Positions 31,350 to 33,543 of a stretch of 64,000 nucleotides of DNA are shown here, piece by piece. Both the position numbers and the translations under genes were made by a program. Source of the stretch: Effrenium voratum (taxonomy: Eukaryota > Sar > Dinophyceae > Suessiales > Symbiodiniaceae); NCBI GenBank assembly GCA_963377175.1, contig CAUJNA010002835.1, forward strand, positions 127,001 to 191,000, written 5' to 3'. How positions within the stretch are numbered: position 1 is the first letter of the stretch; every line of letters starts with the position of its first letter. A model generated the notes under the pieces. It saw nothing but the letters and a program-made list of their open reading frames with translations. It was not told the DNA's origin and did not search any database.

Positions 31350-33543
31350 ATGGATAGCATCGTGCATCAGATCCACACGCTTTCGACGCAGAACGAGAGC
31401 GATCTGAAGAAGCTCAAGGACTTCCTAAGGCACGAGCAGGAGACCCTGAAGGCCAATGCGAGCCAGATACTTCGAACTTTGAAAATAGGCTCCTCCTTTC
31501 TTCTTCTTCTTCTTTCTCGGTATTTTTTCCCCCTCTTTTTTGGAGGGTCCCCCGTTTTTTCTTTTGCAGAAAGCAGGGAAAACATAGAGTTTCTTTTTTT
31601 AGCTGGGTTCCTACTTCCAGCCAAGGATAGATCAGGCTCTCCAAACGCTGGATCCTGTGCAATGCACCCTGGGAACGGCATTCCTTCTGCAGGCGCAGCT
31701 GAGTGCATCTTGCTTCGCCAATCCCCGGGCCACCTTCGCCTTCATCTGCAACTTCCTGCAAGTTGCTGACCCGCAGCAGGCGAAGAAGCTTAACTATTGG
31801 CTTGGATCTTTAGACTTTAGCTTTTTGGTTGAGATTTCAAGTGACGTTTCCCACTGAACGAAAACAACAAGCACTTTTTTTTCGCAGGGGGGTCGTTACT
31901 GCAACCAAGGAAGGCCGCCTCTCCCCTGACCGCCGTGTGCAAGAGCTTCTCGCAGATGGCCATCGACCTGGGGCAGGAGGCCATGCTGAAGAGCCTGCGG
32001 CCGCTGCGTGCGGCGCTTGAGAAGCTGCAGGACACCCCGGAGACGCTGACCCCGGTGCACGCGGAGTTCTTGCGGGTGTGCCTGAAGGTGGGGGTGGGTC
32101 AAAAATAGGTGCCCAAATGAAAAACATGACGAAATTCCGCGGTCTGCTGGTGGTTTAATTTTGACTCATACCCAGGTGAAGGCGTACCACATCGCCGTCC
32201 AGCTCTTGGAACAGCCGATCTTCGACATATCGACCAGTACCAAGAACGGCAGCAGCAGTAGCAGCCCCGCGCAGGTGACGCCGCAAAGCTTTCTCAGCTT
32301 CTTCTACTACGGCGCGCTGGTGCGAATAGGTACTCGGGAGTATGGGAATGCAATTCAATTGCTCCTAGTTGCTCTTACATGTCCAGCATCATGTTTGAGC
32401 GCCATCCAAGCTGATGCGTACAAGAAGTACGTGCTCTTGTGCCTCAAGGTGCATGGTGAAGTCAAGCCGCTGCCAATCTACAGCTCTCATATTCTCCAAA
32501 GGTACGCCAAAAGCCCCAGCTACGTTTTGGATCTGGCCGAGGCGTTTCGCGCTGCAGACGCAGCTGCGTTCCAAAGGACCATGGATGACAAGCAGCCGGC
32601 CATAGAGGCGGATCAGAACATGGGCCTTGTTAAGCAGGTGCTGTCCTCGATGCGGCGGCATAAGATACTCACACTGACCAAGACCTACTTGACCCTCTCC
32701 TTGGCTGAAATCGCCAGGGAGGCTGGGATGCAGGAGACCGACACCGCGGCGGCGGAGGCCATTCTGTTCGACATGATCTCCGAAGGGGAGATCAAGGCCA
32801 GGATCGACCAGAAGACGGGCAACGTGTCCTTCGAGGATGCGGAGGACTTCCATTTTCTGAAACAACTATTTGTTTTTTTCCTTGTTGGTTTTAAAAGGAA
32901 TTTATGACTACTGGAAATAGATATATATATATATATATACATCAAATACATTAAAACAAAACAAATCCAGGGGTCTTAGCCAAATCTTTGGTGCATTTTG
33001 CTTGGATGTTAGGACTTCAACTCTCTGCCAACTTTTAGGAGTTTTCCGAATAACACCCGCTAAAAGTGCGTCACTTGTAGCCGGGCTTCGCAGATTTCGC
33101 AACCGAGTGTTTGTAGAACTAGTTTTTTTTTTGTTTTTTTTTTTTAATCCAGGGCTCTCGGCCAAATGGGAGAGGAGAACATGGATGCGGAGATGATGGC
33201 CAAGCTGGAGAGCCAGCTGGCCCAGATCCTCCAGCTCTCTGCTCGGATCAGCTGCTCCGAGCAGGAGGTGGTCACCTGCGAGGCCTACGTTCGCAAGACC
33301 AGCCTGCTGGAGACGTGGTTGGGGCACATTTTTTACATTTGGCGGTTTGGTTGTGGTTCCATAGATTTTGCATTTTGCATTTTTGGTTGGGAACATTTTT
33401 TTTTTGCGCATTTTGTGGTTTAGTGGTGGACATTTTGCCACTCAACTGCCAACAGTTTGAGACTTTTGGCTCCAACGTCAAGCAAGGAGATGTCCGAGCG
33501 GCCCGTCGCCGGCGCCGTGAACTACGACCTGATGGACATGTGA
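31350..33543 (+). CDS. CSN3: COP9 signalosome complex subunit 3 (CSN3)
   Basis: CSN3 is a PCI-domain scaffold subunit of the COP9 signalosome, which removes NEDD8 from cullins and so tunes SCF-type ubiquitin ligases. The six-exon model is 31350-31465, 31626-31784, 31910-32087, 32176-32858, 33153-33309 and 33487-33543. The lengths sum to 1,350 nt: 449 aa plus stop TGA at 33541, close to the roughly 420-440 aa usual for CSN3. Every junction keeps frame. The N-terminal helical repeats include LKDFLRHEQETLKANASQ joined to IDQALQTLD. Exon 4 holds the PCI core with NMGLVKQVLSSMRRHKI and LTKTYLTLSL (about residues 299-330) and the winged-helix part ISEGEIKARIDQKTGNVSF. Exon 5 carries the C-terminal coiled helix. 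Donors are GA (introns 1, 4, 5), GA or GC (intron 2) and GT (intron 3). All acceptors are AG followed by G. The start is the first in-frame Met before conserved sequence. Exact ends of introns 2, 4 and 5 could shift by a few bases. Confidence 0.9.
32088..32175 (-). mobile_element. Family C element forming CSN3 intron 3
   Basis: The whole 88-bp GT-AG intron is a reversed family C copy. It starts GGGTGGGTCAAAAATAGG and ends TTAATTTTGACTCATACCC. Its reverse complement shares TCAAAATTA.ACCA, ACCGC.G, TTCATTT and TATTTTTGACC in order with 56353-56450. AGGTG flanks it at 32086-32090 and 32174-32178. Confidence 0.82.
33310..33486 (+). mobile_element. Family B element forming CSN3 intron 5
   Basis: It starts with GAGAC, then GTGGTTGGGGCACATTTTTT, has GGTTTAGTGGTGGACATT inside, and ends CTCCAACGTCAAGCAAG. 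GAGA occurs at both edges. It holds an inner duplication of the left part (TTTTGCATTT..GGTTGGGAACATTTT). Confidence 0.8.

Follow-up and report, generated by a model that had tools for sequence, protein, structure and literature searches.

A single repeat family, here called family B, fills whole introns in two unrelated genes of Effrenium voratum (a free-living dinoflagellate with coral symbionts among its relatives), CSN3 and a UBA-domain gene, within a 64,000-nt stretch of genomic DNA (the window). Family B is a short, non-autonomous, MITE-like DNA transposon of about 120 bp. Its insertion, with duplication of 4 bp of target, very probably made both introns and left noncoding repeats elsewhere. 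The result is two introns from one transposon family, resolved base by base, in a genome reported to hold introners. It further indicates that one family recruits splice sites in two ways, and the copies that are not introns provide a denominator for intron formation.

Gene structures

Gene models were obtained by spliced alignment of four proteins (P0001, P0078, P0080, and P0095) to the window, which yielded 44 introns. The aligner permitted GC-AG, GA-AG, and GT-AG introns only, and these classes accounted for 28, 12, and 4 introns, respectively; GC and GA donors are known in dinoflagellates, as mentioned in PMC11453091. A draft CSN3 protein, translated by eye from the window, served as query for a homology search; of the 77 proteins retrieved, the top ones were mostly from dinoflagellates. 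The best match, P0001 (437 aa; longest contig, 1436 bases), agreed with the draft at 94%, and the named organisms after it were Durusdinium and Symbiodinium. P0001 presumably derives from cDNA, because a 1436-base contig with 437 codons has no room for the introns of the gene. The UBA-gene protein retrieved P0078 of E. voratum (99%), and a third protein search retrieved P0080 and P0095, both of the same species. Spliced alignment recovered identical residues at 437 of the 437 positions of P0001, 199/201 of P0078, 332/334 of P0080, and 284/284 across residues 1 to 284 (of 382) of P0095. The structure of UBA-gene intron 1 rests on the public gene model P0078. For two diverged proteins, P0087 and P0088, spliced mapping to 33.6-38.9 kb produced chains that were implausible, and these mappings were dropped; those of P0085 and P0081 concurred on an intron at 35073-35969, which was retained. 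P0095, a public E. voratum model, joins exons of regions 2756-23333 and 42650-48893 while omitting the genes between, and is probably a wrong gene model.

In relatives of the UBA gene, the last exon is left at 30321 and continued at 33918; P0078 instead reads to 30348 and stops. Six related proteins run LLTIYE-Q-V-SQLPR straight across, matching the exon that ends at 30321 and the exon that starts at 33918, which suggests from homology that the E. voratum gene may be joined in the same way. The UBA gene would then possess a GC-AG intron at 30322-33917 enclosing the whole CSN3 gene on the same strand.

Two introns made of family B

The original prediction placed CSN3 intron 5 at 33310-33486 and UBA-gene intron 1 at 25049-25211 and attributed both to one element. 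Spliced alignment bore out both introns to the base (Table 1). In either gene the assigned class was the sole G[T/C/A]-AG choice, for CSN3 among the junctions that yield the P0001 protein and for the UBA gene at its junction. Their common identity was likewise recovered: self-comparison of the whole window aligned a 135-nt stretch of the introns at 71.9% identity (25058-25188 with 33315-33446; E 6e-13), and a profile built from four non-intron copies with 20-nt flanks still detected both, scoring 45.0 and 23.2 bits when no match in 10 two-base-shuffled windows exceeded 5.3 bits. Forced global alignment of the two loci gave identity at 111/153 positions inside versus 33/60 and 30/59 in the flanks. 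The full extents given by a two-copy profile of the intronic copies were 25051-25211 and 33314-33486; the six-copy profile covers the right portion only, i.e., 86 nt in UBA and 103 nt in CSN3. Element ends met intron ends on both sides within 10 nt twice, the intron ends lying at element or duplication ends. Among 200,000 random placements tested against 49 introns, at least one such both-ends match arose in 0.24% and two matches in none.

The two introns obtain their splice sites differently. CSN3 intron 5 consists of the long-form element plus the left copy of the target-site duplication (TSD); the TSD contributes the 5′ GA and the element the 3′ AG, the splice running GA...CAAG. In UBA-gene intron 1, the family end CCAAG reads CCACG, and both splice sites come from the AGGC duplication. 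The notion that the element carries intron signals into genes thus holds for the CSN3 acceptor, but the CSN3 donor and both UBA sites lie in duplicated target. The anticipated end sequences needed revision as well: GGTTGGGAACAT, taken for the left end in CSN3, occurs at 33385, at a distance of 75 nt from the intron start, and the left end there actually reads GTGGTTGGGGCACAT; the right end in CSN3, CCAACGTCAAGCAAG, is close to, but not exactly, the expected CCAACGTCNACNAG.

Table 1. Positions of genes, introns, duplications, and repeat copies in the window
Feature	Positions	Strand	Basis or remark
CSN3 gene	31350..33543	+	6 exons, stop in last; spliced alignment
CSN3 exons 1-3	31350-31465, 31626-31784, 31910-32087	+	Spliced alignment
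CSN3 exons 4-6	32176-32844, 33175-33309, 33487-33543 (with stop)	+	Spliced alignment
CSN3 intron 3, 88 nt, GT-AG	32088..32175	+	Antisense copy of MITE-like family F5
CSN3 intron 3 AGGT duplication	32086-32089, 32174-32177	+	Direct repeat; gives both splice sites
CSN3 intron 5, 177 nt, GA-AG	33310..33486	+	P0001 exons, 437/437
Family B long-form element in CSN3 intron 5	33314-33486	+	Profile extent
CSN3 TSD copy 1, GAGA	33310..33313	+	Direct repeat with 33487-33490; gives 5′ GA
CSN3 TSD copy 2, GAGA	33487..33490	+	Direct repeat; opens next exon
UBA-domain gene	24956..30348	+	Public gene model P0078
UBA gene exons 1-3	24956-25048, 25212-25290, 25855-26029	+	P0078
UBA gene exons 4-6	26499-26592, 29285-29378, 30281-30348	+	P0078
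UBA-gene intron 1, 163 nt, GC-AG	25049..25211	+	P0078, 199/201
Family B long-form element in UBA-gene intron 1	25051-25209	+	159 nt
UBA TSD copy 1, AG/GC	25047..25050	+	Direct repeat with 25210-25213; gives 5′ GC
UBA TSD copy 2, AG/GC	25210..25213	+	Direct repeat; gives 3′ AG
Family B short-form copy	23140..23261	+	Inside gene A intron 21820-23296; right end 35 nt short of acceptor
Family B right half	26392..26461	+	Inside UBA-gene intron 3 (26030-26498)
Family B short-form copy	35167..35285	+	Inside intron 35073-35969; flanks CAAA/CAAA
Family B short-form copy	48211..48328	+	Inside intron 48117-48836
Family B short-form copy	60662..60779	+	Probably inside intron 60490-61175; weak mapping
Six-copy profile matches 1-4	60665-60779, 35168-35285, 48212-48328, 23141-23261	+	E below 1e-12
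Six-copy profile matches 5-7	33384-33486, 25126-25211, 26392-26461	+	E below 1e-12
Family F1 copies 1-4	3847-3993, 8018-8096, 19775-19890, 30373-30493	One strand	Repeat listing
Family F1 copies 5-7	39442-39506, 56932-57046, 60275-60402	One strand	Repeat listing

Family B is a MITE-like transposon

Family B is bounded by C[A/T]TGG...CCAAG, i.e., C[A/T]TGGTTGTTGTTGG...CCAACGTCAACCAAG, with imperfect terminal inverted repeats (TIRs). The consensus ends, which were anchored by hand with a gap, skipped base, or padded base in three of the six copies, are inverted at 13 of 18 positions (P 0.0007 against shuffled ends; P 0.0015 against element interiors). The TIR rests on this consensus because matches within single copies are weak (six copies, P 0.004 to 0.56, mostly not significant). 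Searching the 1.156-Gb assembly with CSN3 intron 5 returned 62 candidates; 40 were scored and all 40 matched, the window's own two included. Our genome sample comprised 31 further matched loci together with 20 stretches of 10 kb each, placed at even spacing along five long contigs. From 58 profile matches in the fetched loci we left out the window's own CSN3 copy (L001), 16 that belong to a tandem array (L018/L019), and 12 whose ends were incomplete. The 29 intact copies that were analyzed are no random sample, because 27 come from loci chosen as best matches to CSN3 intron 5. The 4 bp immediately preceding C[A/T]TGG recurred exactly right after CCAAG in 16 of these 29 copies at zero shift, against 0 or 1 exact at six other shifts and 0.9% agreement for mismatched ends; five copies had none of the four flank bases in common. 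This duplication and the inverted consensus ends identify family B as MITE-like. MITEs are short elements with TIRs and short TSDs that occur in many copies, and coding capacity is not expected at such length. Family B has these traits in common with them and differs from MITEs in general in that some of its insertions are spliced.

The evenly spaced stretches (200 kb, with 12,164 N) held three family B matches, one partial, versus seven in the 64-kb window as counted with a profile trained on window copies, so the window is probably rich in family B. The tandem array extends over C2591:136900-139006 (L018) and C2591:139672-141778 (L019), where 16 copies follow one another head to tail, one every ∼230 bp. 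Some copies are alike beyond the element ends, over ∼50 nt to the left of two copies and ∼25 nt to the right of two (stretches 48157-48328, 60609-60802, and 26391-26487), as if family B were carried inside a larger repeat at these places; the similarity of the copy at 48211 to that at 60662 begins already at 48157. A SINE or tRNA-derived origin was rejected, with no tRNA-like match at family B copies by Rfam (gathering score) or ARAGORN. Over the whole window these programs reported only a tRNA-Gly (TCC) gene at 48560-48642, which lies on the same strand within a protein gene's intron (48117-48836). A tRNA-derived origin had been suggested by GTGGTTTAGTGGTTGAAAT, which resembles a tRNA A box. 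A conserved hairpin was also discarded, since only one of three copies folded as single-stranded DNA beat its shuffles (z -2.86, -1.00, and +1.56). The right-end pattern of the family had no matches in viral and prokaryote collections.

Most copies examined are not introns

The six-copy profile located seven places in the window at E below 1e-12, all on the + strand. One weak + match occurred at 37308 (E 0.04), and minus-strand matches were weaker (E 6e-4 and worse) and fell mostly over the same copies because the element is partly self-complementary. The copies listed in the original prediction did not include the right half at 26392-26461, and the expectation that the other copies likewise make introns was not borne out. 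The ends of the copies at 23140, 26392, 35167, and 48211 do not match intron ends, each lying within a longer intron, and the copy at 60662 probably lies within one too. When flanks were joined across the element, the coding score was 33.5 for CSN3 and 55.9 for UBA, both in-sample because the coding model was trained on the same genes, and the 5th percentile of the 44 true junctions was 7.6. By this score of the flanks only, none of the 29 intact copies elsewhere had coding-like flanks: the highest value was -4.9 (-3.3 with the best splice), with random flank joins at -4.2 (95%) and 4.2 (99%). The four short window copies scored 2.1, -7.7, -26.6, and -19.4. The value of 2.1 belongs to the copy at 23140, with an exon beginning 36 nt to its right, and exceeds the 95% level of random joins without reaching the 5th percentile of true junctions. 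Whole introns account for 2 of the 36 family B copies examined, in two genes, as judged by gene structure for the seven window copies and by flank score for the other 29.

Origin of the two introns

We infer from these sequence features that insertion created both introns. Family B, probably moved by a transposase acting in trans, would insert with duplication of 4 bp of target. An insertion would turn into an intron only if it lay in sense orientation within an exon and its target offered a usable G-A/C/T donor. Duplication of GAGA in CSN3 would let splicing run from the GA of the left copy to the terminal AG of the element; in the UBA gene, after duplication of AGGC, the left copy would supply the GC donor and the right copy the AG acceptor. 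As the element would be spliced out together with one target copy, both mRNAs would be unchanged. Elsewhere in the genome, family B would stay ordinary noncoding repeat DNA, a donor-less target or a noncoding landing site being the likely reasons why most copies are not introns. Counting against the insertion model, the two intronic copies have diverged to 72% identity, and their long form was not seen elsewhere.

Both introns are T- and G-rich, and T-rich introns could look alike by chance, but we take this explanation as refuted, with a virtually nil probability, by the four-copy profile scores of the two introns relative to shuffled windows and by the at least 40 genome places that match CSN3 intron 5. 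The introns might instead be older than the element, if family B entered short introns that were already present and everything but the element was subsequently lost from between the exons. Such a history would be in line with the location of four further window copies, and probably of one more, within longer introns. A MITE in an old intron would, however, leave unrelated intron sequence on either side, whereas the element and one 4-bp target copy fill both introns exactly, with a direct repeat at the exon junction, and we consider this order of events very unlikely. Spreading via RNA, by reverse splicing and reverse transcription, is expected to place copies in the direction of the gene, as is the case for all seven in the window. 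It hardly accounts for the 4-bp TSDs at copies in general or for the consensus TIR, and copies with TTTT or TATA duplications have the same ends, yet no donor is possible in the duplication; an RNA route thus appears extremely improbable.

A further explanation, which is not exclusive of transposon insertion, is that the intronic pair goes back to a single local event, be it a segmental duplication, a gene conversion, or a local hop, with no genome-wide seeding of introns. The intronic copies are indeed peculiar in their length, 159 and 173 nt versus 118-122 nt for the four short window copies. Their long form starts with an extra left part of ∼75 nt that resembles the element's own left half and is missing from the other copies. 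Many family B copies align weakly to this left part from the same start, at best with 16.7 bits, versus 70.0 and 54.6 bits for the two intronic copies themselves. When the 81 opening bases of CSN3 intron 5 were searched against the genome, two candidates emerged, both scored and both in the window, 8 kb apart; the 29 intact copies elsewhere are of the short form and devoid of coding-like flanks. Nevertheless, diverged copies may have escaped this search, which also passes over common words; a local hop would itself count as transposition; and the two long-form copies look like two insertions rather than a duplicated segment because their flanks are unrelated and their duplications differ (GAGA versus AGGC). 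All in all, we give a single local event somewhat less than an even chance. Under the insertion model, either a local hop or a rare variant would have given rise to the long-form pair, and a rare variant hopping locally would be the simplest reading. Rather doubtful, in our estimation, is the more specific scenario in which an already-spliced intron element hopped locally, so that one intron reseeded a neighboring one while the parent MITE family rarely makes introns. Relatives suggest that the pair resides in overlapping transcription units, CSN3 being inside a UBA-gene intron, and the sense-only placement of all seven window copies would fit transcription-coupled insertion. With the long-form copies 8 kb apart, nearby intron reseeding becomes testable in the three sequenced E. 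voratum isolates.

Comparison with known introners

Introner elements have been reported in 5% of E. voratum genes (PMC11114475); this count concerns the same species, and the passage that gives it names no family, sequence, or splice-site mode. In Symbiodinium microadriaticum, introners are described with 4-bp TSDs, TIRs, element-borne 3′ splice sites, and TSD-borne 5′ splice sites (PMC9860276), and the arrangement in the legend to Fig. 2B of that paper is that of CSN3 intron 5 in all four respects. Family B introns follow an introner mechanism already printed for S. microadriaticum. The two are likened by description, and they differ in that the UBA intron takes both splice sites from the duplication and in that 34/36 family B copies are not whole introns or are without coding-like flanks. 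Florenciella introners, which derive both splice sites from the insertion site (PMC9860276, legend to Fig. 2E), are like UBA-gene intron 1 (AG/GC) and CSN3 intron 3 (AG/GT), where both sites come from the target duplication. They nonetheless represent another lineage and another element family, and the UBA copy ends in CCACG instead of the family CCAAG. No description of family B was found in the passages on introners and Effrenium covered here.

A second introner and other repeat families

CSN3 intron 3 represents a second introner and derives from F5, a different family with 4-bp TSDs. Bases 2-85 of this intron match an antisense F5 copy almost end to end. F5 ends near GGGTGTGGCTCAAAA...TTTTTGAGCCACAGCC, and of the 17 copies in which both ends are present, 10 carry a 4-bp repeat (search slack, -2 to +4; null, 3.7%). 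Across the 44 introns, end-to-end matching bases averaged 3.57, compared with 2.94 in shuffled pairings (P 5e-5). At least four end bases matched in 22/44 introns, with 13.4 expected from shuffled end pairings (P 0.0009), and the excess resided chiefly at the second donor base (57% versus 32%). This excess agrees with more introns having begun as insertions with duplication. CSN3 introns 1 (31466-31625) and 2 (31785-31909) are GA-AG introns with CCAAG ends and exact 4-bp end repeats, GATA and GAAG. Both were kept out of family B because they had no matches elsewhere in the window, and they are perhaps introners of unseen families. The copies of family F1 are all on one strand (7/7), like those of family B, and the better ones have inverted ends, CTAGGTCCCCCAGTAG/CTACTGGAGGACCTAG. 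Among eight other repeat families of the window, two small ones are confined to one strand (5/0 and 3/0) and six are mixed (6/2, 3/2, 1/4, 2/2, 2/1, and 2/1).
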